Positions 2,992 to 24,181 of a stretch of DNA of 31,639 bases are shown here, in pieces (position 1 is the stretch's first letter; every line of letters starts with the position of its first letter). Made by a program: the position numbers and the translations under genes. The notes beneath the pieces are model-generated. The model ran no database searches. It was not told the DNA's origin and saw only the letters and a list, made by a program, of their open reading frames with translations. The DNA is from a virus: the IMG/VR virus record IMGVR_UViG_3300021364_000102, positions 1 through 31,639 of that record; one strand, written 5' to 3'.

Positions 2992-3017
2992 TCATATCAC
3001 CTCAAGTACCTTTAATA

Positions 3018-5097: not shown

Positions 5098-7197
5098 TCA
5101 TCCTGCATAAATTATGTAGTTTAATGTTAAGAAAGGATTTAATATATTTAAAGAATTACCTAATCCGCTTTCTGTTACTACACCTTGTGTTGTATTCATT
5201 CCATAACCAGAAAATTCTGCTTCATCCTCTTTAAAAAAATGAAATTTTGACACTTCATCTTGAGCATCGTTTAAATCATTGTCGATATCAGGCGCTATAG
5301 CATAAAATGATTTTTGTAAACCATAATTAGGATTGGTTACATCTGTCGGTTCATACATCATAGAATGTGTGTGTTCCGGTAAATTAGATGTGTTTATAAT
5401 TATATTATCATTACCGTCACTACCTCCTAACACTTCAGCTGAAGTATTGGAAAAACTGCCACTATGCGTACCGCCCATGTTTAACATTCCTAAAGGAAAT
5501 TTTCCTCTTAAATCAGGCACTGCAAAAAATCCATTTGGTAATAATTCCTGTGCTTTATAAGTATAACCAATAATAGCAAACAATTTTTCATAATCAACTG
5601 TTTGTACTTCTCCTCCATCACATAGCAACCAACCTAAAGGCGCAGCTTGCCCAGCAAACGGAATTATTGATCCGATTGGCATTACAGGAACTTTATCTAG
5701 TAATGTCCGAACTTGTATTTTCTTATATCCAATATCATTAGTAGGTCTATAAGTAAGTAATAAATCATCATTTTGTGCTTCAACAACCTCATTCTTTCCT
5801 TGTATCATGTTTTCTGATAACTGTGTAGGAAACTCTATTAAAGCTCCTTGTCCTGTAAAGTTAATATTTTCATTAGCTAACAGTATATCTCCTGTAAATT
5901 CAAACGTAGACGGTTGAGAAAGCCTATTGGCAGACCCTGCTCTACCTGTTACAGATCCTGTTACATTTCCTTCTAAATTACCATAAAAAACATCTGCGTA
6001 AATTCCCGTAAAAGGCATACTTGAATTTCCAATTGAAGATACTCTACTATTTGTGATATCTTCATGTGGCATAATACTATCAGTGTACAATTTGCTATCA
6101 ATAGCAGAATTTAAATAAATATTTTCGCCTACACGTAAATTTTTTGAAATACCTACACCACCAGAGGTTGTAATTGAGCCTGATGTTATCTGATTAGTAT
6201 CCAATGTACTTGTAATAATTAATTTTCCCTGCGTAGTATCTGTAATAGAATTGCTGGTTTTAATGTCCCCTGATACATCTAATTCTGCGCTAGGATTTTC
6301 TTTGTTAATTCCAACCTTCATTGATGAATCGAATGAAGCAACTGTTTTGAAAATACCATCATTTTTAACTACTATGTTTACACTTGCACCAGGTATATTA
6401 TGTCTAATAAAAGCATTGTTGAAATCAACTCCTAATTCATAATCACCATTAAATCCAAGTGAAATTCCATCATTACTTAACACATTTAACGAATAATTTG
6501 TCGTACTATGAGCATCACTTCTTAAAAAATTTCCTGCTAAAACAGTTTGATTATTTACAATCAAACTTTCTGCTTTTTCAGCGACACCGAAATATTTAAA
6601 GTTTTCTCCTAATGGACTTGCTAAATTCAATCCTGCCTTTATAGTTACAAATCCGTCTATTTTCTTTTTAGGAGTGAATTCTATATAAGAAAAAATAATA
6701 AGTGGTTTTCCATTTACATCTAATCTTAAAATATTATATTGATTATTATCAATACCTTCAACTATTTGTGGTGTAGCACCAGTAGTCAAACCACCCGTGA
6801 ATTGCGGACCGATTAATACCCAACCTGCTGCATCAGTATAAATAAATAACTGTAAATTTTCTGTATCAACCCAAAGTTCCCCTTCCTGCTTGATAATCGG
6901 CTGCGTTATTCCTTTATTAATTGTACTTACAGGTATCCAATTTGCGCCGTTATAAACCATCATTTTTTCATTATTTGGAGAAGAATCAAACCAAAGCTGC
7001 CCCTGTACTGGGGTTGCAGGTTGAGTTATACTAGCAAAATTTTCTAATAAATGTAAAAAGTTTTCTCCTATTAAAGGTCCGTATCCTGTATAATTTTTTC
7101 CAGGAAATTTTAAAGATGTTTCACTATTAATAGATTGATCTTGTACAACTAATCCTAATTTGTTAACTTTATCTGTAAAAAAGATTTGATAGGCCAT
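5098..7197 (-). CDS. Short-tail-fibre-like protein with phage tail collar domain (699 aa)
   Basis: Residues 1-135 are the docking module shared with the next two genes (GKNYTGYG, ENFLHLLENFAS, GQLWFDSS, GELWVDTENLQLFIY, LIGPQ). The middle is a beta-rich shaft with DVSGDIKTS, SITTSGGVGISKNLRVG and GNLEGNVTGSVTGRAG repeats. A phage tail collar domain (PF07484 type) occupies about aa 503-570: MPIGSIIPFAG, PLGWLLCDGG, FFAVPDLRGKFPLGM. It is followed by NLPEHTHSM (about aa 604-612), matching the HxH segment that binds zinc in the receptor-binding part of T4 gp12. At 699 aa it is longer than T4 gp12 (527 aa) because of the added N-terminal module. It starts two bases after the stop of the 203-aa gene, with GGAG seven bases before the ATG. 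It most likely anchors to the baseplate and contacts the cell surface. Confidence 0.88.
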   Translation of the reverse strand: MAYQIFFTDKVNKLGLVVQDQSINSETSLKFPGKNYTGYGPLIGENFLHLLENFASITQPATPVQGQLWFDSSPNNEKMMVYNGANWIPVSTINKGITQPIIKQEGELWVDTENLQLFIYTDAAGWVLIGPQFTGGLTTGATPQIVEGIDNNQYNILRLDVNGKPLIIFSYIEFTPKKKIDGFVTIKAGLNLASPLGENFKYFGVAEKAESLIVNNQTVLAGNFLRSDAHSTTNYSLNVLSNDGISLGFNGDYELGVDFNNAFIRHNIPGASVNIVVKNDGIFKTVASFDSSMKVGINKENPSAELDVSGDIKTSNSITDTTQGKLIITSTLDTNQITSGSITTSGGVGISKNLRVGENIYLNSAIDSKLYTDSIMPHEDITNSRVSSIGNSSMPFTGIYADVFYGNLEGNVTGSVTGRAGSANRLSQPSTFEFTGDILLANENINFTGQGALIEFPTQLSENMIQGKNEVVEAQNDDLLLTYRPTNDIGYKKIQVRTLLDKVPVMPIGSIIPFAGQAAPLGWLLCDGGEVQTVDYEKLFAIIGYTYKAQELLPNGFFAVPDLRGKFPLGMLNMGGTHSGSFSNTSAEVLGGSDGNDNIIINTSNLPEHTHSMMYEPTDVTNPNYGLQKSFYAIAPDIDNDLNDAQDEVSKFHFFKEDEAEFSGYGMNTTQGVVTESGLGNSLNILNPFLTLNYIIYAG

Positions 7198-7199
7198 TT

Positions 7200-7811
7200 T
7201 TATTCTCCAAGCATGCTAGATAAACTTTGTATCCTAACAGTATAATCAACTTGTATTAATCTGTTCAAACTTTTTTGGACAGGATGAAATAATACATGAG
7301 TTAATAACATGCTTTCACCAGTTGAACTCCAACTTTTCAATCCTAACTCATCAAATATGAAAGTATCATTTGTATCTGTACCTGTATCAAAAGCATCTTG
7401 GCCTGCTGGTTCACTATAATCTAATAAGCAACTTACAATTATATCTGTATAATTAGTACCACTTACATGCCTAATTTCAGTTTTATTCCTAAACGTATCT
7501 AAATTGTTAACGCTCCTATCATCTACAACTTTTTCGTATGTTTCATTATATAATGCAGAATTTGTACCAGTGCTATTAGGAGTTAAATATGTAATTATTC
7601 CTGTAGGATCTACATAAGTTCCTCCATTACCAAAATTCATCGAATATATAAATCCGTTACCTGAATTACTCAAACAAGAAGCTAGTGCAATACTCATATT
7701 TTCATAATGTATTGCATTTCTTTTGTTTACATAAATCTTTTCTGATTCAGGATCATAAATCTTTATATGTCCTTCTATCATTATTCCATTCTTTTCATTA
7801 AATAAATTCAT
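7200..7811 (-). CDS. Virion structural protein, probably baseplate (203 aa)
   Basis: The protein is soluble and probably beta-rich, with three recognisable blocks: NKRNAIHYENMSIALASCL at about aa 29-47, MNFGNGGTYV at about 58-67, and DELGLKSW followed by LLTHVLFHPVQKSLNRLIQV at about 155-190. Such blocks occur, as far as I recall, in structural proteins of marine myophages between the large wedge gene and the fibres. They suggest a domain that binds fibre or wedge partners. It lies 20 bases after the giant gene and two bases before the collar-domain fibre gene, so it is probably made with both. AGGA lies seven bases before the ATG. The T4 gene-order counterpart would be gp9 or gp8, but I see no residue-level evidence for either. 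Confidence 0.7.
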   Translation of the reverse strand: MNLFNEKNGIMIEGHIKIYDPESEKIYVNKRNAIHYENMSIALASCLSNSGNGFIYSMNFGNGGTYVDPTGIITYLTPNSTGTNSALYNETYEKVVDDRSVNNLDTFRNKTEIRHVSGTNYTDIIVSCLLDYSEPAGQDAFDTGTDTNDTFIFDELGLKSWSSTGESMLLTHVLFHPVQKSLNRLIQVDYTVRIQSLSSMLGE

Positions 7812-7828: not shown

Positions 7829-7836
7829 TATTTATC
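7829..7836 (-). promoter_or_regulatory. Possible late promoter (GATAAATA) at the end of the giant gene
   Basis: GATAAATA on the minus strand overlaps the TAA stop of the giant gene and ends 17 bases before the ATG of the 203-aa gene. The spacing is shorter than at the three stronger candidates, and this composition will give chance matches, so the call is tentative. Confidence 0.3.
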
Positions 7837-10800
7837 TTGGCATGTCAGGCTTATTAATTCGTATTTTTTGAACTATTGCGTTATTTGTGCTATTTAAAGT
7901 CTCTCCTTCGGCTTTCCAAAGTTTTCCTTGTCTTCTTATAACCGTGACTTTTTCACTTGCCATAGGTGGTACTAATAAAACTAATTCGTTGCTATTTTCT
8001 AAATCAAATTCTTGAGGAAGAATTATGTCACCTTCAGGTGAATCTTGTCCTAAAGCAGGATTAAATGAAGCAATTGAATTTTTACGTAATCTTTTACCTC
8101 CTACAAAGACTTCAAATTCGTTAATATTATTAGGAATAAAATCTAAAACAAATCTAGTATTTTCTCCATCGCCGTTAAAAATTGTTCTTAATATCTCATC
8201 TTTATAAGGCAATATAGTTTCTATACTTTGATTATAAATTTCAACTCCCGCAGCATGCATATTTTTTACACCTGTTCCGAGTGTTCCTCGCCGTAAATTA
8301 AACAAAATATTTTCTGTTTTTTCATAATATTCTATTCTCTCTCCGTCGATTATAATTACTCCAGGATATTTGCTATTTTCAGTAGGTTGAGGTAATAAAC
8401 TTCCATCATTAACTTCTATAAATTTATCATACCAATACAAATCCTGCATTAAAGTTATATTATTTTCTCCATTTAAAGTAGTGTAATGCGTATTATTTAA
8501 GATATCATGGAATTGTTTCCAGGCAAACTTATTAGAAAATAATTTATTACTAAAATGTATTACTTGAACATTATCATTTTCTTGCAATCCATTTACTAAC
8601 TTTACAGAAAATCTATCAATTCCTAATTTATAATCAACACTAGGACTCAACATTATTCCATTTTTAACTACCCATACATACTGAGCATCTATAGCCGAGC
8701 TATTTAAAGGTATAATTCCATTTTTTAATTTTTGATATTCATAAAAATCATCTCTATATTCATCAGTATTAGTAAAAGGATAATCAGACTGGATTTCTAC
8801 TACCTTTATAACGTCTCCTTTGCTTACTGTTAACCCTATATCAGCCAAATTTAATATTCTAGTACCAGTTCCAAATGGAGTTTTAATAGAGGCAAATAAA
8901 TTGCTTACTTGGCCTTCACCAAAATTTAGATCATCTATCCTTAGCCCATTTTTAAAAATTTGATATTGTTTATTTGCTTGAAGAATTATAGAAAATTTTA
9001 TTTCTATTAAATCATCTATCACTCTTTTTATATCAAACTTAGATGATGGAACATTTGAAAATTCTGTCCTTTCTACTACATCGAAACTTTGCCAATCTAT
9101 ACTTTGACTATCGTGATTACTAAATTGGTAAACACGGATTTTATCGTTTACATTTAAATGTATGGGATTTATATATAATGTATCCGGTGTTGAAATAAAC
9201 TCTGTATTGTTAAAATATCCAAATCTATAGTCTCCACCAGATTCTACACTGTCCTCATAACCGTAAACATAAACCTTCAAAATATCTCCAGGCTGACTTA
9301 AACCTTTCCTGATTTCTATTGTACTACCTTCTTGGGAATAATCATCAACTAATAAATCTGTTGCAGTAGACGAAGTGTAATTCCAATCTACTATATGTTG
9401 TAATTCATTATCATTTAAGTAAACTTTAATTTGATGAAAACTTAAACTACCTAATGGTATTTGATATAATTTCAAACTATATTCTGTTACATCTGTTGTT
9501 ACAAAAGTCTCTACATATCCAGGATTTAATAATTTATTATTTACAAATACAAGAGTATGCCATTCTGCAGGCATTTGAGCAAATGGTGCATTGTACAATT
9601 TAAATGCTGTTGTAGATCCATCTGCAATAAATTCATCTATATGTATAGCACTATGCTTTTTTTCTTCTCCAAAAGTAATTAAGTAATTAATTATTGCGTT
9701 TTCTTCTATAATATCTGAAAATCTTATTAAAACATTATTAGAACTATCATAATATTCCGTATCTGAAGCAATTAAAACATAATCTAAATTTTTTCCATTA
9801 ACTGTAATTTGGCCATTTAAATCTTCCTGCCACCTAACATTTAACAAAAACTCATTTGTTTTTCCATCAGCTACTAGTACACCAGTATCAAGCACATCAT
9901 CTGCACTGTAATCTAAAATTAAAATATTAATTTTATCATTTAGCGCAGGTGTGTTTACAAATATAACTTTTTCTTCATTATAATTTAGTGTGTAGTCTTT
10001 ATCTAATTGATACAACACATTATTAATTTTAACTATTAATGATAATTGACTAACTGGTTTTACATTAATATCATATTCAGTTTGAACTCCATTTCCGATA
10101 TAATTAAGATTATATATAAAACTACCGCCTAAATTAGGTCTTTCATAGACAGTAATAGCAAAGGAATCTTGCACAAGACCTGGTAAAAGTTCTTCAGGTC
10201 CTTTACTATTTGTCGGAGATACAAAATTATCACCATCTATAACTATTTCATTTGATACTATTCCTTTTGCATTACTATAATTTAATAGTCCGCCTTGTAT
10301 TTCAGTATCTAAATTTTCATAATTAGGAACAAAACTTCCATCACTTATTGATTTTCTTATTATAATTATATCATTAGCATTAATATTTGTAATGTAATCC
10401 TGTACAATAAAACTATCTTGAACTCCGTCACCTATAATTGTTTGCATAATTGCATTAGGATTATTGACTGCAGTTTCCGCATCAACAAACTCAGGATCGT
10501 CAATTCTAACATTATTATGATAAACATTGTATGCAGAACCAGTTTCTAATGATAAATCAAAATTAATTACTACATCATTTAGTACTTTTTCATTAATCAA
10601 AAATCCTATTTGTGTTTCATTAAAAGTTAAAAATTTAGGTATAATTTCTTGTGAAATATTATCAAAATCATCTACATCCAATCCTAATCCAAAATCTTGA
10701 AAAATATTTGCACTGTTAATACTTAGACTTGTATTATTTGCCACGTTTAATATACTTGTTCCAGCTGTAGAGTTATCAAGTGGTTCATTTTCATAATTGA

Positions 10801-13800
10801 CATTAAACAAAGTATAAAAATTTATTTTCTCAGCTATAAAATTACTATTACCATTAATTATAGCTGCTACTAACTTTGCAAACATATTAAAATCAATTAC
10901 ATATTTTCTATCTAAAACTGCAATGTAAGTTAAATGTCTATCAACAGTATAAACTATATCATTGTATTTTTCATCATTAATATCAAATGCTGTATCTAAA
11001 TATTCAGTAGTATCCCATCCTAACTTTGATCCAAATAGAATACTTTTAACTTGTACACCACCGTAATCTATTCCATCCATATAATCAGCTAAAGTTAAAT
11101 TAGACGAAAATAAAGAGTATACTAAAGAAAATCTATCTTGTGCTGTTAAAAATTTTACATCTTTAAAATAATTTATTACTATTTCTGTATTAGCATTAGG
11201 TGGAACATCAAAAGTAACAGCTCCTACATATCTATCATAACCCTTTGAATTATCTAATACATTTGTAATTGTATATTCTTGTGATAATACCTTAGCATTA
11301 TTGAAATATATTGAAACTTTACTTTTGGTTAATTGCATTGGCCATTGTAAAATAAAATAAAATTTATTATTTGTACCAACAAACGTTTCGCTTGTTTCTA
11401 AGCTTGTAATTTCATATTTTTTAGATAATCTATCAAATTTTATACTGGTGTTAACAGATCTTGTAAGCTGGTCTCCTAATATGATAGACAATCTAGCTTC
11501 TCTTCCTTCCTCTGCTACTGAACCATTTATAGTGATTCTAGGAGTAGAAAAATAACCAGTTCCAGGATTGATTACATCAACTGCTGTAATGCTTCCATTA
11601 TTACCGAGCCTAGCAATTGCTTCAAACCCAGATCCACCGCCGCCCGTAACAGTTATTTTAGGTGGCACACTATAGCCTGCTCCACCATCACCTATTTTAA
11701 TTTCAGTTATAGAATATGTATTATAAGCATTCCAAATTTTAGAAACATCTGTATTTAAACTTTCTGTATTATAAAATCCATCTTCTGTAACAGTTATTTT
11801 ATATGGCAAAATTTTATTATAATCCTGCTGATATTGAGGACTTAAATCAAAATCTCCTATAAACGTAGACGCATTTTCTGTAGTATCATAAACACTTACA
11901 AATTCTCTTAATTTAGATTTGAAAGGTTTAACTTCTCTTACATATTCTTCATAACTTGACAAATTATCATTGTTAAATGTAACATCATTTCTCAATTCTC
12001 CAACATTATGCTTAACTTTTAAAAAATTAGTTTTGAATGCCCAATCTATAGCAGAGTGTTCGTAAAACGCATACCGTAACAATGCAAAAAACAATCTATT
12101 GTACTCTACTGCTAAGTCATCTATAAATATTTCATTCTTTATTGCATTCAAAATATTCCTAATTTCTATACTTGGAATACTATCGTATAGATTTGTATCA
12201 TATGATTTTAAATCAAAATTAATTAAAGCGTCTGTAACATTATATAATACCGACGAAAACTCTATTGTCCCGTTTTGCTTTCCAATAGTTTCATAGTTTA
12301 CTGTATAATCTGCATTCGCAATATTATTAATTTTCTTTAATAATAACCATCCGTTATTTGATATATTTTTAATTTTAACGACATCGCCTATTATATCCGA
12401 TAAGCCTGGCAATTGATAAGCATAATCTATTACGTAATTTATTTTAGATTTAGTGTTATAACCTTTTTCATACCAATCTATATAATTCCAATACAGATTT
12501 GTATTAAACCCTTGTGTTTGAATTCTACTCCAACTTGTATGGCTATCTTTTTCATAAAGTGCCCATTTTCCTAATACAGTTTCATCAGCTGTTACTAAGG
12601 CAGTAAATTTACGTACAACTACATAAGTTGACTGAGAATAATTTTCTCCTCCATTCACAACGCCTACACTTGATATACTACCTGTTGTATCTAACTCAAA
12701 ATCTAATATTAAATTACTACCTTTACCAATAACTGTATACGTTGGATTAACTAAGTATCCATAACCTGGATTTATAACAATTACTTCTAAAATTGAACCA
12801 TTTTCTATTACTAGAGAAATCTCTGCTTGTTCTGTTTTTCCAATACCAGAATTAAATAAATCATCATACGTATCAACTACTACGTCATAAAAATTTAATT
12901 CATAACCAGGCGGTTCATCTTTTGCAAATAAATTAGATATATCTTTATTATCAATCAATAAGTAATTTTTTAAAACAAGATTTACTCTGTTGAAATAAAT
13001 TTCCAAAGCCTTGTGTCTATCTTTAAACCAACTTTGTCTAATAGATTGCAAATTACCATACCTATACTTTTCACTTAATGTCATATCTGGCACAGACCTA
13101 CCATAAAGATCATAACCTACCAAAGAATCAACTAAGTTCATATGAACATTTTCTGGAATTTTACTTTGTGCATCATCTACAGTCAATAATTTATATTCAA
13201 AATGCTCAGGAGTAATTGTATCTGTGTATATTTGAAAAGATATTGCAACATGATCATCTATTAAATAGTTTTTACAATTAAACAACGCAAATTCATTTGT
13301 AGATATTAACGCTACAAAAGAATAATTCTCATTTAATGGATCTTGTAACAAATTTTTTATTTGAGCTGCTGTTAAATTCCTTCCTTTTTTACTTGGTAAT
13401 ACAGTAACATTCTTTACCCAATAATAATATTTTACAAAAAAAGATTTAGTTATTTCGTTATATTTTCTTTCTATAGAATAGTTACTATTTGCTGTACCAG
13501 TGATATTAAGAGAAATCCCTTCAGGTGTACCAGACAGTTCATTCCACTGTGTTGGTGTATAGTCTGATTCAACCCATTCGTATATTTCTATATCAACAGT
13601 ATTATCATACTTAAACCAATAATTAGTTGAATATTTAACGTTATCTTGATATGGATGATAAAATTTTACATTTTTTGTATTCCACCAAATTTCATTTACA
13701 TGATCATTACTCCAGTACATAGTTTCATCTTGATTAACTTCCGAAGAATTTGCATTTGTATAAATTGCAGGATCGTATGGTAATTTAAAAGTAATATTTT

Positions 13801-16800
13801 GTTCTGCAGGTCCTGGAATTTTACCTTGTGAAGCATCTATATAATCTAATTCTTTAATTACTTTTTTTGTTCGCTTATCATACAAATTAATTTTTTTAAT
13901 TTTAGATAAATCAACTGGATATTTTGGTTTTCTCAAAATAGAAAATAATTCTTTTTTCTTTTTCCCAAATTCAACTATTTTATCTAAATTTTGTAAACTT
14001 ACATAAACATTATTATTGTTAGTAATTATATGCTCTCCAAACGACGTAGTTACATCTGTAATTTGCATATCTAAATTTCCAGAATATACAAAAGTATTTC
14101 CTATAATTTGAAAAATGCTAACTGATCCTAAATTATCTTTAATAGTATTAAAACTGGTAAAATTATTATCAAAAGTTGTAGTAGAATTATCTAAACTAAT
14201 GTAGAAAGTTTGATAACCATTTTTTGAATACACATACAATAATAAATTTTCATCTATAGTTACATACTCTCCAAATTTTTCAAAAGCTTCATTATATCTA
14301 TTATAAATAGTCTGTTTTAATACAAAATTGCTACTTTCTAATTTGTAATAAAAAACTACGCCATTAGAAAACCCACCAAAATTATTTTTTGGATCACTTA
14401 CTATTAATATCGAGCCATCACCGTTTAAACTAAGAGAATGTCCAAAATCTATGCTATTGTTTGGTGGACTTATATTTTGACTCCATTTATAATATCCATT
14501 TAAATTTCTATATACTGCCAGTGTATTAGTATTTTCATTGGTATATTTTACTGTAACAACTAAAACTTCGCCATCTTTACTCACAGCATAATTTATTCCA
14601 TATTCAAATAAATTCTCTAAAGGAATTGTACTAATATCTACTGAATCAAAAGTGATATTTAAAAGACTATTATTAGGCAAATATCCTGTATAATCTATTA
14701 AATTATCTGCTTCTTTCCATACTCCTAAATCATATGCATAATCAAAAGTCTCAGGATTTCTATTAGAAGTTGCAACATAGAACACATTATCAACAAGTAC
14801 AATATCATTTACAAAATAAGTTTCATTATTATCGTACGTTCCCCTGTAATTAGGATTTTTAGATGTAGTCCAATCATATAAAATATTATTTTCAATACCT
14901 TTCTTGAAAATATTAATATTTTTACTAATGCCTAAATTAGATGAACTAAAAACTTTATAAACTTCATTATGAGATGTAATCGATATATCTTTACCAAATT
15001 CAGTATTATTATCTCTGTTAAACAAAACAAGTTGTTTACTTTTTCTATAAATATTTCCAATAAACTCATATATGTATAACGATCCTTCTTTCTCATAAGA
15101 GCTAGGACTACCATTTACATCGTATTGTAAATTTTTAACTTCTTGCCATTCCAACGAAACCTTAGAAGGGATTGATGCGGACCTTGCTTGTCCTACTACA
15201 ATTTCATTTTTATAAATCCAATATTCTTCTCCTTTTATTTCTGATTCTGCTGTAATCGGTATACTAAATTGGTGTAAAACAACTGCAAGTTTACCTATTT
15301 CATTTGTTGGTAAAGATACATCAATACTGAATCCTATATCTCTATCTACATTGTAAATGTCTGCACGATTATACGGATCATTAATACCTGTCATTGCTAG
15401 CATTTCTATAGTTGCTTCTTGACTTAAACCATCTATTACAGTTTTCTCACCTAATTTCCATGTACCAGTAACATTTCCAACATAGACTAATATTGTTCCA
15501 TCAGAAAGACGTTGTAGATACATTACCTCAGCAGTATTGCTTGTTCCTTTTTCTCTAATAATTTGTCCTACACGACCTGGTACTGTTTCTAAATTCCCTA
15601 AATTTTCAAAATATTTAGGATATGGTTCATAAGGCAAACCATCTGGACTAAATCTATTTTCTCTATAAATTATAAATCCATCCCATAAATCCCAAATAGT
15701 TGTTAGATTATCATTATTATTCAAAATAGTGTTATTTGAAAACCCTAAGTCTGTAATTGATTTGTAAATATTTGAAACAGGAGTTTCAATCGGAACTAAA
15801 AATGTTTCTCCGCTAACAGACCCTACAAGTAAATTTTCAAAATCAAAAATAATTTCTGATACGTCTTGACTTAAGAATTGAACTTGGATTTGCCAAACAG
15901 GTACTGTATTATCAATATTATTAGGATCTTCTACAACTACACTTGAAAATACAGTAGCAAATGCATTTGTATTACGTTGAGTTAAAATTTCTCCTTCGAC
16001 TAACGTAGGTGCAGTAGCAAAGCGAACATTTTTTACTTTTAATAGCTTAATTGTTTTTGGTAATTGATTATAATAAAATGAAAAACTATCACCAATAGAT
16101 AAATTTTCTAAACCTATAGGTAATCTCACTGCATAATGTCTAAAAACATATTCTTGATCAACTGATTCCCATGCATCAGGGATTAATGGATCTATTTGTT
16201 GTATTTTTATTCCATTGTAACTAAATCTTTTGATTAAACTAGCATTAGTATTGATGTTTACATTATCTAAGATATTAGCGTAAAATAAATTTGTAGGTGT
16301 ACTATCTGTAATCGTTTCTTTAACTATTAATCCCCTACCATTATCTATAACTGTATTTCCAACATAGTATGGTGGAACATCAATCTTAATATAATGACCA
16401 AGAATATTTCCATATAAATTGTCTTCATTTGTTAATGCTAAAGTATAATCTCCTAAAATTTCTCCATCTTGATACAGAATAGAGCTTTGGTCAAATACTT
16501 TGTATACATTTTTTAAGTAAATTATATTAGAATCAACTGTTGTATATTGATATGCAACATAACCAAATGCATTACCAGAATATACACGTGAATTTAATTC
16601 AATCTCAATAATTGTTTCTAAAACTAAAATACATTCTACTTTTTCTTGAATAATATGCTTATCAGTAAGTATATTGCTAGCTTTAGCATTTGAGTTTAAA
16701 AAATTTATAGAATCATAAAATGGTTCCCTAGCAAATATTTCTAATTGGGTCTGATTAGCATTAGTAAATTTATTCCAATGCAGTACTATTTCATCTCCTA

Positions 16801-19800
16801 CCTGTACTGCATCATACATTTCTTTATTAAGTTTTATTAAAAAATGATCAGCAATTATAGTATTATCACTACCTGTAATTGGATAATTTCCAGTTAACAA
16901 CATAGCTACATCAACAGCATTTTCAGTATCTAAATTTTGTTCAACCAAAAATTCATTAAAATTATAAAAACTGTTGATTAAAGTAGACTCAGCAGCAGGA
17001 AGAACTGGTATCAGAGCAGTCCAATATAAATTATTATATGCAACAATATCTCCAGTTTCGTACGTTTGATTTTCTAAATAAGTTCCAACAAATTTAGTTT
17101 TTACAAAAGATTCTGACGGACTTCCTATTGCTATAAACTTTCCATCTTTAGAAATTTTTAAAGATTCGCCAAACAAATAAGGAATTGCATGTTGTGAAAA
17201 CTCTATTATAACTTTTGCACCAAACCCTTGAGTTTGATTAAAAACTATTTTATTTTCATTTACAGATACTGTATAATCTGTAATTCCAACTCCATTTACA
17301 AATATTTTTTCTATGTCTGTTACAGAAAAATTACTATCGACTACTACATATTCATTTAAACCATTTAAATCAGATATTATAAATTCGACCTTTGAACTTT
17401 CGTTAGGTTCCAATATTTGCGATAAAACAAAAGGATATAATGTGCTTGCCCTAGTATAGACATATACTTTACCATCACCCTTACTATGATTACCTACGAC
17501 TAAAATGGTATTTTTTTCGTTTACATCAAATGTAATATTAGAAAAATTATCTAGTGAAATTTCATTAGTTTTGTTAAATTTTTCATTTAAATTTAAAACT
17601 TGCCAATCATCATCATTATCAACCCAAATTTTATGCCCAAGTTGAAATTTTTCAAAATTTATTTTTGTAATATCATCAAAATTGGATATTCTAGAATTTT
17701 CAAATCCTGTTAATATGCCAGTGTATTCTATTATTGTGTCCGGTAATTTAGGTAATTGATCTTTTAAGTTTGTAACAAAATCTGACGTAGCGTTTAATGT
17801 TAATGTGTTATCTACAATTGTTTGTATAGAAAAAAACAAATCTACATCTATCGAGTTAGTAAATTTAGAAAGGTCATTATTTTGTTCTACAAAATAACTA
17901 TAAGATATAGTAGAAATTCCAACTATAGATCCAACATATATATCGTTTTTAGGCAAACGATCTAATGTTATGATAATTTGAGTTACCTTTGCATCATCTA
18001 TAATAATATTTTTTATAAAATAAGACAATTGAATATATTTTAAAACAGCCCAATTATTTTTGTCATAATTTATAACATGTATATAATCATACAGATTTAA
18101 TTGAGTTGCGTTATAAACTAGCAAATCCTCATAATTTTGTATTGTATCATTTATATCTTTTACATTTACATATCCTGTAGTAGAAAATACATCAGTATAT
18201 CCTTTTTCTACTAAAGGAAATGGGTTATGATCGTAGTTTTCATATTTTAAATACGTTTCGTAGCTAGGTATTCTATAGATATTATCTATAATATTTGTTT
18301 TTTCATTAGTTAATAAAATAGGCTGAGATTTTAAATCATATTTTTCTTCATTAAGTGTATAATCAAATTCTTTGTAAGTGTCAATTCCTCCATACGTACA
18401 TACTCTAACTGCCCATTCTTCAAAAAATTCTAAACTTTCTTTTTGATCACTACTTAACACATCAAACAAATTTGTTAAACTTTTCTTTGTGCCTTTATCT
18501 TTTATGTAACCTTGATAAAACTTATACTGACTAACTTCATTATTGATAATATTTTCTAAATATTGTCTTTTTTGATATCCAATTAAATGTTGTCCCATTT
18601 GCTGCAGTTCAACATTAAGATTATTACTATCTAAACTATAAAAATCATTAAATTGTTCTGTCTTGTAATCAAAATTTGCCATTAATTTTGATTCTGGTTT
18701 ATAGTCTAATCTTGTCCACTGGTCAAAATCAAAAAATTCTTGTCCTGATATTTTATTAGGTGCTATATAATAAAATTCTTTATATTTTACTAGATCGCCT
18801 GTGTTATAATCATTCCATTGTAACCATTGTTTTAAAGTTGCATCATGATAAATAAATCCTTCTATGTTAAATGCTCCTGTCCAATTATTAGTTATATACC
18901 CTGCTACTCTAATTCTATCTTGTCTATATCCTGGAACTAAGTCAAAAATTGTATCATTAAATACAGTTATATTATCAATTAACACAACATGTTCTTTTAA
19001 TACTAAAGGAAATTTTGCAAAATATATACTTTTATCAGTATCAGCTGCATCAATAATAAAATTATTACTATTATCTCTTACAAAATTTAAATCTTTAAAA
19101 TTAATACTTGTACCATCAGCGTCTAATATATTATAACCCGACCTAGAATCTAAAGTATTACCAACTACTGCTTGAGAATTGTAATAATTTAATCTATAAG
19201 CACCTGGACTTAATGTTATAATTGATCCTGCTTGCCAGTTTTGCGTACACCAAAAAACAAACTGTTTTACTGCATGATTCCAATCAGCTAATTCATATTC
19301 GTCATTAATAAACTTATCGAATTTAAATCCAATTGTCTCTAAGTAGTGCCCATAACCTAATAAAAAGTCAACGACATCTTGCACAGACTTTACGCCTGTA
19401 TCATAATCTAAATATGATAAACTTTTTTCAAAATTAGTTGGAATAGTAATATCTATACCACCTTCAATTGGTAATCTTGGTAATACAACAAATTTTGTTT
19501 TGTCAAATTCATCTGTACTTGTATGACTAATTTTTACTCTATAAAAAATTTCATTTACTCTTACAATTGTACCAATGACGTAATCTTGCGCAGGAACCCA
19601 ATTAATAAAACTTTCACTTATTCCACCAATGTTTAATGTTCTATCTGTATTTTTCCTAATAACTTTATAATAAGCAAATAATGGTAATGTATTATCATAA
19701 CCACGAATATAAAGTAATTCTGCTTGCTTTTCAATAATTACACCACTGTAAACAATTTCTTTTATAGGATAACTTTCTACATAATTTATTGAATAATTTT

Positions 19801-22800
19801 CACTAGGTACAAAAACATTACCATTATTAGACGGAGTCCTACTATCTAAAATTAATTTTAGTTTTTCTTTATCTGTAAATCCTCCAAGATGAAAGGACAT
19901 CTGATTTGTAATATTTCTCAATAATAATTGATAATCTACGTATTTTCCTTTGTATATTTTATTTTGATAATCAAAAACATAATTAATTAATCCACTACAA
20001 TAATTTACATTGTCTGTATCTGTTTTTTCTAAAAATATTAAGTCAGAAAGTTTAATATGATTATCAGTTTCTGAATAAACTATTTGTCCTGCTACATTCC
20101 TTTTTTGCCTATTCCTATCAAAAGCTACAGAAAAAACGTAGCTAGGTTTATTGAGTATAGCTGCCTTAAGCAAAGAAAACACATAACCACTAGACCTTCT
20201 CCATGCAGTTTCTACTGGACTATAATCTCCGAATCTAAATTGATCTTGTATCCTATCATAAGAGTAATTTTTCAACACATTGCTATACAAAGGATTTACT
20301 AAATTACCATGCTCGTCTACCGGAATATACTTTGTTAAATTTGGTCTAATAAATCTTTTATCAATTTTTATTGTAGGTTTTCTTATTATACCTGCTTCAA
20401 GGTCTTGCCACAATTCTAAATTATTTCTAGTATATGGTAATTTACCATATTGTTCTTCCCACCAGTCTGGTTTTATAGAAAAACCTAGCATTTCCCAAGG
20501 ATGAGTATGCGGTCTGTCAGTATCATAAACATAATGAAAAATTCCTCTCCACCAGCCAGGAACTGATTCACCATTATCAAATTTAGTATGATTAAAATTA
20601 TATGTAAATTTATTATTAAAATCAAAATATCGATGTGTTACAAAATCAACATTTACCAATTTTATCCATTTAGCAAAATCGGCAAACATAATACTTTCTA
20701 TATTTGATCTAGAAATATTTGTTTTCCTATTATATCCAGGAATAATTTTATATATATCAAATAAATCAGCATCATAATTAATTTTAATATTATTAAAAAT
20801 TCTCTTTTCTAGCTCTAATATTAAATTATCTCTGTAATCTTTAAATGCTGTAATCTTACTATTATCATGTCCTTGTATTATCACTTCACCAATAATTAAT
20901 TCATTGTACACCTCATTATCTTGAGCTGCTAAATTTTTATTTGACATTGGTAGATAATAAGCTCTTGATAATCCTTCTAATTTTAAAATATATACTTCAC
21001 CGTTTCCGCCTAATTCGACATCTTTATCACTTGCAGTTTGATATTCGTTGAATAAAGGAAAAAACCACCCTATTTCTTGTGTATTTTCTTCAACACCATA
21101 TAACTTAAAATTTTCTAAAATATTATTTCCTGTAATTTGAACAGTATCGTCAATATATAATCTTGGTTGAAATTTAGGATATAAACCTAATTTTGTAGGC
21201 GTAGCTGGAATAAAAGACCCATTAGTACTTTCAAACTCATAAATCGAAATTATATCTCCTAATTGTTTTTTTGCATTTATTTCTACAAACCCGCCATCTA
21301 TAAATATATAATCTTTACCATGAATAAGTTGTTTTTTATTCTTATATACAAGGACTGATTTATCACTTAGATAATCTAATTTAAAATCTTCACTTATACC
21401 AAAATAAATTTGATCTACATCTTCTATTGTTGTTTCATTTATTAATTTTCCATTTATTCCTAGCATATCTGACAAATAAAATGCATTTGTTTCAGTTTTA
21501 TTTTTATTTAAACTCAACAGTATTTTGTCAAAATGATTTATTATTTCTCCATCAAATCCTAAATTTGTTGCAGTTGAAATAAAATTTCTTTTAAATTTAC
21601 TATATTCGTCTTGTGAAAAAGATATTGAATCAATTATGCTAAAATCTTTTTGTAACATGTTAAAACTATATAAGTTGAATAATGAAGAATGCTTGCAAAA
21701 TTTTCTTCCTTTGTGAAATTGCAAACCTAAATCACGTAAATTATTTCTACCAGGAAAAATGCCTTCAAAATTATTTGTTTCTTCTACTATAGTTTTACAA
21801 TGATCTAAGACTTCACCAAAAGTAAAAATATCCAAATCTTCATTTAATGGATTCGTTTCTAAATTCGCTGGAATTTCATAGAATCCATTAGAATTTTTTT
21901 GATATTTTGTTCTTGTTTTTAATATGATACTTGATCCTAAAACTAAATTTTTCAAAAATCTAATATAACTTTCGCCATTTACATTTTGTTCTATAACGTA
22001 TGCAACATTTATTTTTTGTAAAACATTGTTAACGTAAACCCTTATCCACAAATCATTAATAAAATTATTATCATCATATGTATCAATGGGATATATTTTA
22101 CTGTCATCTTCAACTATAAACTGTCTTATAACATTTTGTCTACTGGCTTCTACTTTTGTAAACCCATTAACTAGCTGATATGTTTGATCATTATTATATT
22201 TTCTAATATATAATGGATTGTTATAGATGCTTAGTTGTATATTATCTTTATAAATTATATTATCATGAGAAACTAAGTCAAATTTAAAAACAATATCTCC
22301 AGAATTTTCTATATTCTTATATGTTATTGGAAATCCTAATTCAGTATCATTATTGCCATTTCCTATTTCATAAGAAAAAATCTTGTTTCCTGAAAAATTA
22401 CTACTAGGATAATTTAATTGATCGTTTAATGAAATATCATTTTTATCAAAACAATCAAACAAGGGTGCCTGATTAACTGAAACTTTCTGTTGAGCTTTAA
22501 TCCACGTTGTACCATTAAAATAAAAACTTGTGCCATTGTATTTTTGACCATTTCTGACTGTTATATTGTCATTAATTTCCGGCACTGTATCATCTTCTAC
22601 AAGTGTTATTTGCTTATTATTATTAACAGTAATAAACTTGATTTTAAAAATCCTATTTTTTACCAAAATATCAGTATCTTTTAAAAACGTTACTCTTAAT
22701 CCTTCTGTTAATTCTACACCATCAATAAAATATCCTTCACTACCTTCTATATTAGAAAATGCATCTGTTGTTACATCATCTACTAAATCAATTTTTCCTT

Positions 22801-24181
22801 TATTTTTTGTACCAAAATTAAATAATTTTAAATTTTTATTAAATTCAATAATAGGTCTTGCAGCTTTAAAACTTTGATTTATAGAAGTATTTTCTTTGTT
22901 AATTTCATAAGACTTCTCTATAACGTCAATATGAAACCACCTATTAGTATTACTCCAAATATTTCCATCGATGCTACTGCGATTAATTGTTATATAATCT
23001 TTATTACCTAAATACTTCAATGCTTTACTAAAAGGTAACGTATCAAATCCGTTTGTATCAAAATCTACAAATTCATCATTTAAAAAACCTGCTACAGATT
23101 CTAAATTAGACGAATTTATCAATTCTATAGATTCTCCTACGCCTTCAACAAACCATTCTCCATCAGCATATTTTTTAGGAAAAACATTACCAATAAAATT
23201 AACTTTCATACCATTGGATAAATCCCAACCTTGACTTGTCGTGTAATTCTTTTTACCGATTATTTCCTTTTCTACATCTATTTCTGAATTTTCTAAAATA
23301 TCAAAAATCCTTATAGACCCTGCAAGGTTTGGATCGGTTTTAGAAATATAATAAATTACATCAGGAGCATTATCCGGTACAGTAAATTCTATTACTCCGC
23401 TATCAATAAATTTTTCATCAGTTAAAAAGCCATCGTTATCTAATTTTGTAATTCCATTTTCATAAACTAAAGAAGTGTTTGTTGTTTCTTGACCATACTC
23501 TCTACCAGGAGTAAAACTTATCTTTGTAACAAACGCAATAGGATAATTTGGAACATTTACAACAAATTTATATGTTTGACCTCTATATAAGGTAATATCA
23601 GGATTATTAGTAAGTCCGTCTGGTGTAAAAACATATGTAAAATTATCTAAATTATCTCTAAGATCAATAGCATAAGTGCTTTTCACTTCCTTAGTTTGAC
23701 CATAAACTTGTACACTAGGTGGACCATAAGGTAACCAATAATAACTTGAAAAATTAATAAATTTATCAAAATCAATATGAGGTTGCCATGCATAATATTC
23801 TGCAGAATTTACTACATCATGATTTACATTATCTTTAGCATAATTTTGCAATAAATTGATTAAATCATTGTAATTACTGTAATATTCTAAATTACCTAAC
23901 TCATCTTTAACCAATGTAGCAGGTTCAAATTGATAATCATTTCTATTTTTAAAATTATCAGTGATATATAAGTCTTTTGTAGAATCAAAGGCAGTTGTAT
24001 TTTTCCTACCATAAAAACCATTTAGATCTTTAACTAATCCCGATTGTATCAATTGATCAACTGTTGCATTTAGAAATTTTTTGTTAAAATTTGTTCTAAA
24101 ATATTTTGGTAGATGGTTAATAGATTCTTTTTTGTCATTATTACTTGGCATGGGTTCGGTTTGATCATTTAAAAAAGCCAT
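7832..24181 (-). CDS. Giant modular virion protein, probable baseplate wedge (gp7-position) protein (5449 aa)
   Basis: A single open frame of 5449 codons, roughly 600 kDa, fills half of the window. In T4, gene 6 is followed by 7, 8, 9 and 10; here this ORF follows gp6 after 11 bases. Modules in order: conserved-looking N-terminus (aa 24-180: LPKYFRTNFNKKFL, SSYYWLPYGPPSV); cupredoxin-like sandwich (about 185-292: YRGQTYKF, VPDNAPDVIYYIS); LFDCFDKND block (545-620); W-rich block (1215-1350: PHTHPWEMLGFSIKPDWW, GDYSPVETAWRRSS); carbohydrate-binding-like units (near 1525, 1787, 2369, 3116); helical QYKFYQGYIKDKGT segment (about 1875-1910); propeller-like blades (2220-2356 and 3195-3385); VPDMTLSEKYRYG block (3670-3735); glycine-rich GYG/P sheets (3785-3860, 4158-4220); MDGIDYGGVQV (about 4360); beta-sandwich repeats (4575-5370). 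AGGA precedes the ATG. A sequencing-error fusion is unlikely because no internal start signals or frame breaks are seen. Function is inferred from position. Confidence 0.85.
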   Translation of the reverse strand: MAFLNDQTEPMPSNNDKKESINHLPKYFRTNFNKKFLNATVDQLIQSGLVKDLNGFYGRKNTTAFDSTKDLYITDNFKNRNDYQFEPATLVKDELGNLEYYSNYNDLINLLQNYAKDNVNHDVVNSAEYYAWQPHIDFDKFINFSSYYWLPYGPPSVQVYGQTKEVKSTYAIDLRDNLDNFTYVFTPDGLTNNPDITLYRGQTYKFVVNVPNYPIAFVTKISFTPGREYGQETTNTSLVYENGITKLDNDGFLTDEKFIDSGVIEFTVPDNAPDVIYYISKTDPNLAGSIRIFDILENSEIDVEKEIIGKKNYTTSQGWDLSNGMKVNFIGNVFPKKYADGEWFVEGVGESIELINSSNLESVAGFLNDEFVDFDTNGFDTLPFSKALKYLGNKDYITINRSSIDGNIWSNTNRWFHIDVIEKSYEINKENTSINQSFKAARPIIEFNKNLKLFNFGTKNKGKIDLVDDVTTDAFSNIEGSEGYFIDGVELTEGLRVTFLKDTDILVKNRIFKIKFITVNNNKQITLVEDDTVPEINDNITVRNGQKYNGTSFYFNGTTWIKAQQKVSVNQAPLFDCFDKNDISLNDQLNYPSSNFSGNKIFSYEIGNGNNDTELGFPITYKNIENSGDIVFKFDLVSHDNIIYKDNIQLSIYNNPLYIRKYNNDQTYQLVNGFTKVEASRQNVIRQFIVEDDSKIYPIDTYDDNNFINDLWIRVYVNNVLQKINVAYVIEQNVNGESYIRFLKNLVLGSSIILKTRTKYQKNSNGFYEIPANLETNPLNEDLDIFTFGEVLDHCKTIVEETNNFEGIFPGRNNLRDLGLQFHKGRKFCKHSSLFNLYSFNMLQKDFSIIDSISFSQDEYSKFKRNFISTATNLGFDGEIINHFDKILLSLNKNKTETNAFYLSDMLGINGKLINETTIEDVDQIYFGISEDFKLDYLSDKSVLVYKNKKQLIHGKDYIFIDGGFVEINAKKQLGDIISIYEFESTNGSFIPATPTKLGLYPKFQPRLYIDDTVQITGNNILENFKLYGVEENTQEIGWFFPLFNEYQTASDKDVELGGNGEVYILKLEGLSRAYYLPMSNKNLAAQDNEVYNELIIGEVIIQGHDNSKITAFKDYRDNLILELEKRIFNNIKINYDADLFDIYKIIPGYNRKTNISRSNIESIMFADFAKWIKLVNVDFVTHRYFDFNNKFTYNFNHTKFDNGESVPGWWRGIFHYVYDTDRPHTHPWEMLGFSIKPDWWEEQYGKLPYTRNNLELWQDLEAGIIRKPTIKIDKRFIRPNLTKYIPVDEHGNLVNPLYSNVLKNYSYDRIQDQFRFGDYSPVETAWRRSSGYVFSLLKAAILNKPSYVFSVAFDRNRQKRNVAGQIVYSETDNHIKLSDLIFLEKTDTDNVNYCSGLINYVFDYQNKIYKGKYVDYQLLLRNITNQMSFHLGGFTDKEKLKLILDSRTPSNNGNVFVPSENYSINYVESYPIKEIVYSGVIIEKQAELLYIRGYDNTLPLFAYYKVIRKNTDRTLNIGGISESFINWVPAQDYVIGTIVRVNEIFYRVKISHTSTDEFDKTKFVVLPRLPIEGGIDITIPTNFEKSLSYLDYDTGVKSVQDVVDFLLGYGHYLETIGFKFDKFINDEYELADWNHAVKQFVFWCTQNWQAGSIITLSPGAYRLNYYNSQAVVGNTLDSRSGYNILDADGTSINFKDLNFVRDNSNNFIIDAADTDKSIYFAKFPLVLKEHVVLIDNITVFNDTIFDLVPGYRQDRIRVAGYITNNWTGAFNIEGFIYHDATLKQWLQWNDYNTGDLVKYKEFYYIAPNKISGQEFFDFDQWTRLDYKPESKLMANFDYKTEQFNDFYSLDSNNLNVELQQMGQHLIGYQKRQYLENIINNEVSQYKFYQGYIKDKGTKKSLTNLFDVLSSDQKESLEFFEEWAVRVCTYGGIDTYKEFDYTLNEEKYDLKSQPILLTNEKTNIIDNIYRIPSYETYLKYENYDHNPFPLVEKGYTDVFSTTGYVNVKDINDTIQNYEDLLVYNATQLNLYDYIHVINYDKNNWAVLKYIQLSYFIKNIIIDDAKVTQIIITLDRLPKNDIYVGSIVGISTISYSYFVEQNNDLSKFTNSIDVDLFFSIQTIVDNTLTLNATSDFVTNLKDQLPKLPDTIIEYTGILTGFENSRISNFDDITKINFEKFQLGHKIWVDNDDDWQVLNLNEKFNKTNEISLDNFSNITFDVNEKNTILVVGNHSKGDGKVYVYTRASTLYPFVLSQILEPNESSKVEFIISDLNGLNEYVVVDSNFSVTDIEKIFVNGVGITDYTVSVNENKIVFNQTQGFGAKVIIEFSQHAIPYLFGESLKISKDGKFIAIGSPSESFVKTKFVGTYLENQTYETGDIVAYNNLYWTALIPVLPAAESTLINSFYNFNEFLVEQNLDTENAVDVAMLLTGNYPITGSDNTIIADHFLIKLNKEMYDAVQVGDEIVLHWNKFTNANQTQLEIFAREPFYDSINFLNSNAKASNILTDKHIIQEKVECILVLETIIEIELNSRVYSGNAFGYVAYQYTTVDSNIIYLKNVYKVFDQSSILYQDGEILGDYTLALTNEDNLYGNILGHYIKIDVPPYYVGNTVIDNGRGLIVKETITDSTPTNLFYANILDNVNINTNASLIKRFSYNGIKIQQIDPLIPDAWESVDQEYVFRHYAVRLPIGLENLSIGDSFSFYYNQLPKTIKLLKVKNVRFATAPTLVEGEILTQRNTNAFATVFSSVVVEDPNNIDNTVPVWQIQVQFLSQDVSEIIFDFENLLVGSVSGETFLVPIETPVSNIYKSITDLGFSNNTILNNNDNLTTIWDLWDGFIIYRENRFSPDGLPYEPYPKYFENLGNLETVPGRVGQIIREKGTSNTAEVMYLQRLSDGTILVYVGNVTGTWKLGEKTVIDGLSQEATIEMLAMTGINDPYNRADIYNVDRDIGFSIDVSLPTNEIGKLAVVLHQFSIPITAESEIKGEEYWIYKNEIVVGQARSASIPSKVSLEWQEVKNLQYDVNGSPSSYEKEGSLYIYEFIGNIYRKSKQLVLFNRDNNTEFGKDISITSHNEVYKVFSSSNLGISKNINIFKKGIENNILYDWTTSKNPNYRGTYDNNETYFVNDIVLVDNVFYVATSNRNPETFDYAYDLGVWKEADNLIDYTGYLPNNSLLNITFDSVDISTIPLENLFEYGINYAVSKDGEVLVVTVKYTNENTNTLAVYRNLNGYYKWSQNISPPNNSIDFGHSLSLNGDGSILIVSDPKNNFGGFSNGVVFYYKLESSNFVLKQTIYNRYNEAFEKFGEYVTIDENLLLYVYSKNGYQTFYISLDNSTTTFDNNFTSFNTIKDNLGSVSIFQIIGNTFVYSGNLDMQITDVTTSFGEHIITNNNNVYVSLQNLDKIVEFGKKKKELFSILRKPKYPVDLSKIKKINLYDKRTKKVIKELDYIDASQGKIPGPAEQNITFKLPYDPAIYTNANSSEVNQDETMYWSNDHVNEIWWNTKNVKFYHPYQDNVKYSTNYWFKYDNTVDIEIYEWVESDYTPTQWNELSGTPEGISLNITGTANSNYSIERKYNEITKSFFVKYYYWVKNVTVLPSKKGRNLTAAQIKNLLQDPLNENYSFVALISTNEFALFNCKNYLIDDHVAISFQIYTDTITPEHFEYKLLTVDDAQSKIPENVHMNLVDSLVGYDLYGRSVPDMTLSEKYRYGNLQSIRQSWFKDRHKALEIYFNRVNLVLKNYLLIDNKDISNLFAKDEPPGYELNFYDVVVDTYDDLFNSGIGKTEQAEISLVIENGSILEVIVINPGYGYLVNPTYTVIGKGSNLILDFELDTTGSISSVGVVNGGENYSQSTYVVVRKFTALVTADETVLGKWALYEKDSHTSWSRIQTQGFNTNLYWNYIDWYEKGYNTKSKINYVIDYAYQLPGLSDIIGDVVKIKNISNNGWLLLKKINNIANADYTVNYETIGKQNGTIEFSSVLYNVTDALINFDLKSYDTNLYDSIPSIEIRNILNAIKNEIFIDDLAVEYNRLFFALLRYAFYEHSAIDWAFKTNFLKVKHNVGELRNDVTFNNDNLSSYEEYVREVKPFKSKLREFVSVYDTTENASTFIGDFDLSPQYQQDYNKILPYKITVTEDGFYNTESLNTDVSKIWNAYNTYSITEIKIGDGGAGYSVPPKITVTGGGGSGFEAIARLGNNGSITAVDVINPGTGYFSTPRITINGSVAEEGREARLSIILGDQLTRSVNTSIKFDRLSKKYEITSLETSETFVGTNNKFYFILQWPMQLTKSKVSIYFNNAKVLSQEYTITNVLDNSKGYDRYVGAVTFDVPPNANTEIVINYFKDVKFLTAQDRFSLVYSLFSSNLTLADYMDGIDYGGVQVKSILFGSKLGWDTTEYLDTAFDINDEKYNDIVYTVDRHLTYIAVLDRKYVIDFNMFAKLVAAIINGNSNFIAEKINFYTLFNVNYENEPLDNSTAGTSILNVANNTSLSINSANIFQDFGLGLDVDDFDNISQEIIPKFLTFNETQIGFLINEKVLNDVVINFDLSLETGSAYNVYHNNVRIDDPEFVDAETAVNNPNAIMQTIIGDGVQDSFIVQDYITNINANDIIIIRKSISDGSFVPNYENLDTEIQGGLLNYSNAKGIVSNEIVIDGDNFVSPTNSKGPEELLPGLVQDSFAITVYERPNLGGSFIYNLNYIGNGVQTEYDINVKPVSQLSLIVKINNVLYQLDKDYTLNYNEEKVIFVNTPALNDKINILILDYSADDVLDTGVLVADGKTNEFLLNVRWQEDLNGQITVNGKNLDYVLIASDTEYYDSSNNVLIRFSDIIEENAIINYLITFGEEKKHSAIHIDEFIADGSTTAFKLYNAPFAQMPAEWHTLVFVNNKLLNPGYVETFVTTDVTEYSLKLYQIPLGSLSFHQIKVYLNDNELQHIVDWNYTSSTATDLLVDDYSQEGSTIEIRKGLSQPGDILKVYVYGYEDSVESGGDYRFGYFNNTEFISTPDTLYINPIHLNVNDKIRVYQFSNHDSQSIDWQSFDVVERTEFSNVPSSKFDIKRVIDDLIEIKFSIILQANKQYQIFKNGLRIDDLNFGEGQVSNLFASIKTPFGTGTRILNLADIGLTVSKGDVIKVVEIQSDYPFTNTDEYRDDFYEYQKLKNGIIPLNSSAIDAQYVWVVKNGIMLSPSVDYKLGIDRFSVKLVNGLQENDNVQVIHFSNKLFSNKFAWKQFHDILNNTHYTTLNGENNITLMQDLYWYDKFIEVNDGSLLPQPTENSKYPGVIIIDGERIEYYEKTENILFNLRRGTLGTGVKNMHAAGVEIYNQSIETILPYKDEILRTIFNGDGENTRFVLDFIPNNINEFEVFVGGKRLRKNSIASFNPALGQDSPEGDIILPQEFDLENSNELVLLVPPMASEKVTVIRRQGKLWKAEGETLNSTNNAIVQKIRINKPDMPR
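8070..10440 (-). repeat. Array of related beta-sandwich repeats in the giant protein C-terminus
   Basis: At protein level, segments opening with a G-D/N-G-x-x-x-x-F/Y type turn followed by V-N-x-x-L and Y-T-L strands recur: IGDGVQDSF (about aa 4580), YIGNGVQTEYDI (4688), VADGKTNEFLL (4765), FIADGSTTAFKL (4847) and FNGDGENTRFVL (5329). Units are spaced by about 75-130 residues in the first four and are divergent at DNA level. This is the usual build of elongated phage fibre or wedge arms. Boundaries are approximate. Confidence 0.55.

Follow-up and report, generated by a model that had tools for sequence, protein, structure and literature searches.

A 5449-residue protein encoded directly after gp6 in a metagenomic virus is probably a greatly enlarged baseplate wedge protein of the gp7 type

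The window, that is, the whole of IMG/VR record IMGVR_UViG_3300021364_000102 (a 31.6-kb metagenomic fragment of 31,639 nucleotides), carries on its minus strand 5449 codons without interruption (7832-24181); is this a genuine gene, and what might so large a product do beside the genes for a phage baseplate? The preliminary description read it as one uninterrupted frame under coding selection, encoding a ~600-kDa virion protein that either replaces several wedge and fibre-anchor proteins or forms a long peripheral arm. From the dinucleotide composition of the ORF itself, each random codon has p = 0.092 of being a stop (about one stop per 11 codons), so the probability of encountering no stop in 5449 codons is ~10^-228. 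The remaining five frames contain 302-867 stops over the same interval, with a longest open run of 109 codons. Third-position GC stays at 0.13-0.14 across the six segments of the ORF, and gp6 has 0.14. A ribosome-binding site (AAGGA) is located immediately 5' of the ATG, and the gene after the giant ORF has a separate one (AGGAAAA); Rfam gave no match in the window, where promoter and terminator patterns were at chance level. The single coding frame is thus borne out, and the mass computed from it, 624.6 kDa (pI 4.7), agrees with the size first proposed.

Profile searches of IMG/VR identified at least 588 confirmed relatives per scan. Among the IMG/VR matches listed, 159 relative loci contain the giant frame, which is complete in 34 (4459-5345 aa, all on other contigs); the loci were taken with flanks of up to 10 kb, so longer copies are under-represented. 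The frame is split in only one of the 159 (L133, 9628-15922), in which two overlapping frames meet at residue ~1084; this resembles a single frameshift, either real or a sequencing error. At the level of contigs, independent copies of the same full-length frame make a mis-assembly very unlikely; the giant gene is genuine, conserved and widespread. A peptide-pattern search for related loci with the C-terminal slice gave no match, although the C-terminus of the giant protein is conserved.

The genome neighborhood is that of a T4-type baseplate operon at gene 7, as had been claimed: a gp5-type hub, gp25 and gp6 are encoded upstream, and a 203-aa protein followed by collar/fibre proteins downstream (Table 1). 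The gp25-gp6-gp7 order that marks the T4 gp7, or wedge initiator, is therefore found in the window; gp6 is directly upstream of the giant gene in 143 of the 147 relative loci with room upstream, and a gene of ~200 aa is directly downstream in 27 of the 28 with room downstream. The latter probably encodes a small wedge or adaptor protein that is essential; it is 65-74% identical in the relatives, far above the giant protein (40-55%).

Table 1. Features of the giant gene, its product and the neighboring genes; residues are those of the giant protein.
Feature	Residues	Position	Strand	Basis
Giant gp7-slot baseplate wedge protein (probable)		7832..24181	-	5449 aa, 625 kDa; ATG start; homologues
Conserved N-terminal block	1-1013	21143..24181	-	AlphaFold2 mean pLDDT 81
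Cupredoxin-like beta-sandwich within N-terminal block	166-297	23291..23686	-	structure match
Second conserved block	1100-2100	17882..20884	-	AlphaFold2 mean pLDDT 75
Carbohydrate-binding module family 5/12 (CBM5/12) domain	~1525-1569	19475..19609	-	PF02839 E 4e-8; chitin-binding modules Z ~7, 45 residues
Second CBM5/12-like domain	~1781-1827	18701..18841	-	PF02839 and structure match
Most conserved part	1838-1937	18371..18670	-	helical, low pLDDT alone
gp7-core motif FYxGxIxxKGTxxxxxxLF	1886-1911	18449-18526	-	profile scan
Hypervariable insert	~2100-3000	15182..17884	-	occupancy 0.18-0.8 in relatives
Third conserved block	3390-4135	11777..14014	-	BLASTP, conservation
GxGY beta domain, copy 1	3797-3854	12620..12793	-	iterated profile
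GxGY beta domain, copy 2	4158-4217	11531..11710	-	iterated profile; also in cyanophage giant gp7
Tandem ~70-90-residue beta repeats	4689-4976	9254..10117	-	iterated profile
gp6-type baseplate wedge subunit, 1135 aa		24193..27600	-	phrog_10646 5.8e-285, phrog_219 1e-22
gp25-type baseplate wedge subunit, 147 aa		27644..28087	-	PF04965
gp5-type hub/spike protein, 687 aa		28087..30150	-	phrog_13211 2.7e-40
Conserved 203-aa gene, phrog_11259		7200..7811	-	adjoins giant gene in 27/28 relatives
Tail-collar fibre protein, 699 aa		5098..7197	-	PF07484

A tblastn search with the N-terminal slice matched 60 phage records, the matches listed being jumbo-type myoviruses. Three successive slices of the giant protein match phrog_10938 (E 1.8e-143, 4e-82 and 1e-46); the match extends over most of the family and the gene directly follows gp6, so we place the protein in PHROG 10938, the giant virion structural protein family of RaK2-like and other related jumbo phages. 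Homologues occupy the same slot in Atu_ph07 (AUZ94962, 4449 aa), PA5oct (gp355, 3857 aa; the record notes ESI-MS/MS), RaK2 (gp465, 3326 aa), Salicola phage SCTP-2 (3807 aa), Phosso (4555 aa) and Vibrio phage 2.275.O (3771 aa), as does CBB_236 (3340 aa). The isolates share with the giant protein three colinear BLASTP blocks (residues 1-1013, ~1070-1960 and 3400-4120), the slot after gp6 and the KGT motif in its place; however, they are only 25-32% identical to it and shorter, and the profile for the beta repeats detects few copies in them or none.

Several of these large proteins are constituents of virions: 21 virion peptides were recovered for CBB_236 (PMC5259590) and 71 peptides for the cyanophage protein S-SZBM1_208 in CsCl-purified virions (PMC9146016, in which 724 kDa is the predicted mass). 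Together with the PA5oct annotation, these agree with the proposal that the giant protein is a virion component. A further relative, phAPEC6 gp245 (381.88 kDa, 17 peptides, directly after wedge protein gp244; PMC7247149), is assigned as such by size and position. Two genes in the gp6 position of the isolates were also noted: in SCTP-2 (L005, 8606-17896) the gene ahead of the giant homologue, in the gp6 position, is 9291 bp long (~3096 aa), and in Vibrio phage 2.275.O (L014, 11995-15858) the 1287-aa gp6-position protein is annotated with a CBM5/12 module, suggesting that this module entered the neighboring wedge protein too.

Giant proteins in the same slot are also encoded by cyanophages, some annotated as gp7 or baseplate wedge initiator (P-SSM4, 7312 aa; B23, 2845 aa; ACG-2014f, 4225 aa; S-SZBM1_208, 6619 aa) and others unnamed or 'structural' (S-RIM8, 6395 aa; Sf-CH11, 3275 aa; P-SSM7, 7124 aa); short gp7s are those of T4 (1032 aa), Pelagibacter phage HTVC008M (1016 aa) and Stenotrophomonas phage Ps15 (503 aa), all sizes being taken from annotated coordinates. 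The giant protein is thus one of the large members of a kind that had been catalogued before, the giant gp7-slot baseplate proteins, which reach 7312 aa; the kind is not new. The cyanophage gp7s share with it the gp25-gp6-giant order, a core motif of ~26 residues and the GxGY and beta-repeat modules, but they have no overall sequence similarity to it, and their modules differ in order and number; hhalign of block A1 with the N-terminal 2000 residues of S-SZBM1_208 gave no significant match. The short gp7s have the same gene order, but they are at most about one fifth of its size and have no direct profile match; hhalign of blocks A1-A3 with the single T4 gp7 sequence gave probabilities of at most 0.2.

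The piece common to short and giant gp7s is located around residue ~709 of S-SZBM1 (IRDFYRSKGTKVATQYLFKILFG). A profile of this cyanophage core, built without T4, aligns with residues 732-760 of T4 gp7 (DFYSTKGIEASYKFLFKVLYNEEVEIEI; hhalign probability 92.8, 48% identity over 29 residues), and it is this cyanophage core that in turn matches the giant protein. When the profile was slid over 152 windows of the giant family, the window with residues 1886-1911 ranked first with a score of 29.6 (mean 11.9, sd 3.5); 34 column-shuffled decoy profiles reached at most 21.1, and addition of T4 and HTVC008M to the profile gave the same result. The motif had been spotted by eye prior to the scan, which took in every window. 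By profile comparison, the giant protein thus has a motif related to the gp7 core, a short one only, and the link amounts to 26 residues with an hhalign probability of 41%. Conservation in the giant protein peaks at residues 1801-1900, in which 28 of 100 positions are near-invariant. Folded alone by AlphaFold2, the core region gives helices with pLDDT <50; this may reflect a segment that needs its gp6 partners in order to fold, but low pLDDT may also come from plain failure of the model. No gp7 chain was among the structural matches listed for models 1-1013 and 1100-2100; the core region, part of the second model, has low pLDDT. P2 gpI (Tail_P2_I, PF09684) was considered as a source of the KGT motif and rejected: PF09684 has no match in the window or its relatives (P2 control, 8e-58), and the single P2 gpI profile scores within the decoy range at a place other than 1886-1911.

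In phage XM1 and type VI secretion systems (T6SS), two gp6-type subunits join small gp7 counterparts in a core bundle and trifurcation, and XM1 gp17 is 242 residues long (PMC10457771, PMC6300606); compared with the 1032 of T4 gp7, this indicates that gp7 normally varies in size around a small core. A study of pelagimyophages concluded that gp7 is absent and that VrlC substitutes for it in pelagi- and cyanomyophages (PMC7029224). The gp7-slot genes of cyano- and pelagiphages examined here (L180-L188) carry the core related to T4 gp7 732-760, which argues, from sequence, that gp7 is present in both groups and enlarged in the cyanophages.

From the gene order, the family relationships and the core motif, we conclude that the product of the giant ORF is probably a gp7-type wedge protein of the baseplate (the wedge initiator), hugely enlarged, with a conserved core and an outward arm. 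The core motif, which connects the jumbo-phage giants, the cyanophage giants and T4 gp7, is the useful outcome; residues 1886-1911 offer a testable anchor between the first and the last of these, and a solved baseplate of an isolate would reveal how a wedge subunit of 400-800 kDa is organised.

Conserved blocks make up about half of the giant chain, with variable stretches between them. A structure search with the N-terminal model matched cupredoxins at residues 166-297 only (Z 9.8, rmsd 2.4-3.5 A, 100-107 residues aligned); the model of residues 1100-2100 matched CBM5/12 and, weakly, pilin/Ig-like folds. The slice with the second CBM5/12-like domain holds two PF02839 stretches, and the domain matches a tail-fibre chain of Agrobacterium phage 7-7-1 (9rkv_M; Z 7.4, 46 residues). 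In the viral structure library the matches belonged to the family itself, most of them being unnamed or 'YHYH domain' proteins, and a PDB sequence search started from the N-terminal slice and from profiles A1-A3 gave only chitin-binding modules and one chance-level antibody match. At residues 2010-3420, FG-GAP_2 was detected in 18 and CBM5/12 in 13 of the 21 family members scanned; in the copy encoded by the window, CBM5/12 is the only signal over this stretch, and FG-GAP repeats are attributed to it from the family. Iterated profiles identify two GxGY domains and eight to ten beta repeats of 70-90 residues, the additional repeat copies being at residues 685-766, 924-991, 4263-4352 and 5334-5434; S-SZBM1 carries both modules too, GxGY about 15 times. 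A match of residues 4130-4244 to phrog_460 ('head closure') is the GxGY domain, that is, a mobile module and not a neck protein.

Modules of the CBM5/12, FG-GAP and beta-repeat types are common components of adhesion proteins; we therefore propose a host-facing arm, and the modular domain content fits the long peripheral arm of the preliminary description. In the build that we envisage for an enlarged gp7, the conserved core would dock on gp6 in the baseplate core, the stretch around 1886-1911 would supply the helices packing against two gp6 subunits of the inner baseplate, and the blocks 1-1013, 1100-2100 and 3390-4135 would build the wedge body. From gp7 stoichiometry, one copy per wedge and six per virion would be expected. 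The protein may have grown by gain of small beta domains (cupredoxin-like, CBM5/12, GxGY and tandem beta repeats), with FG-GAP propeller repeats in addition in the relatives; the variable domains would form the outward arm, probably meeting host surface glycans and/or docking fibres, and might help in relaying the signal for contraction to the core. Contact with the host is inferred from the domain types only.

The other part of the preliminary description, that the giant protein replaces several wedge and fibre-anchor proteins, is not supported. Phage-Gp8 (PF09215) and T4_gp9_10_N (PF07880) found nothing over the cut-off in Atu_ph07, PA5oct, RaK2, SCTP-2, Phosso and Vibrio 2.275 or in the IMG/VR contigs searched (T4, the positive control, matched strongly), and residues 176-294 weakly match the end of the gp9-type phrog_677, as would be expected if gp7, gp8, gp9 and gp10 had been fused or functionally replaced so that one chain does several jobs. 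However, S-SZBM1 combines its 6619-aa gp7 with both Phage-Gp8 and T4_gp9_10 matches, so giant size does not require replacement; the chain owes its size to small beta domains rather than to recognisable wedge proteins; the PA5oct annotation has a gp10-like protein three genes downstream; and the gp8 and gp9/10 families of the jumbo relatives may have diverged beyond detection. We consider such a replacement unlikely.

Somewhat less probable is that the protein is a peripheral fibre or adhesin located after gp6 by chance, with some other unrecognised protein acting as gp7: adhesive proteins typically contain modules such as CBM5/12, FG-GAP and beta repeats, but the gp25-gp6-giant order is kept across very distant phages, conserved blocks account for about half of the chain, and the gp7-core motif is within its most conserved part. 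Least probable is a polyprotein that a phage protease would cleave to yield several structural proteins; the variable stretches between the conserved blocks make cuts conceivable, but we found no evidence of cleavage (the 724 kDa in PMC9146016 is a predicted mass and no cleavage test), and T4-type baseplate wedge proteins are not known to undergo processing.

A broader suggestion, offered tentatively, is that a single gp7 lineage spans 503-7312 aa, in which the wedge initiator of T4-related and jumbo phages is a common anchor that carries a lineage-specific host-facing arm of carbohydrate-binding, propeller and beta-repeat modules, the arm in some lineages assuming the functions of gp8-gp10.

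Farther downstream on the minus strand, three successive fibre-type genes (5098-7197, 3052-5091 and 1417-2991) have in common an N-terminal domain of ~90 residues (GKNYxGYGxxxxENFxxLLENFA...PxxGQLWFD; phrog_15511), and their C-termini differ; from this pattern, the N-terminal domain is predicted to be a common docking domain.
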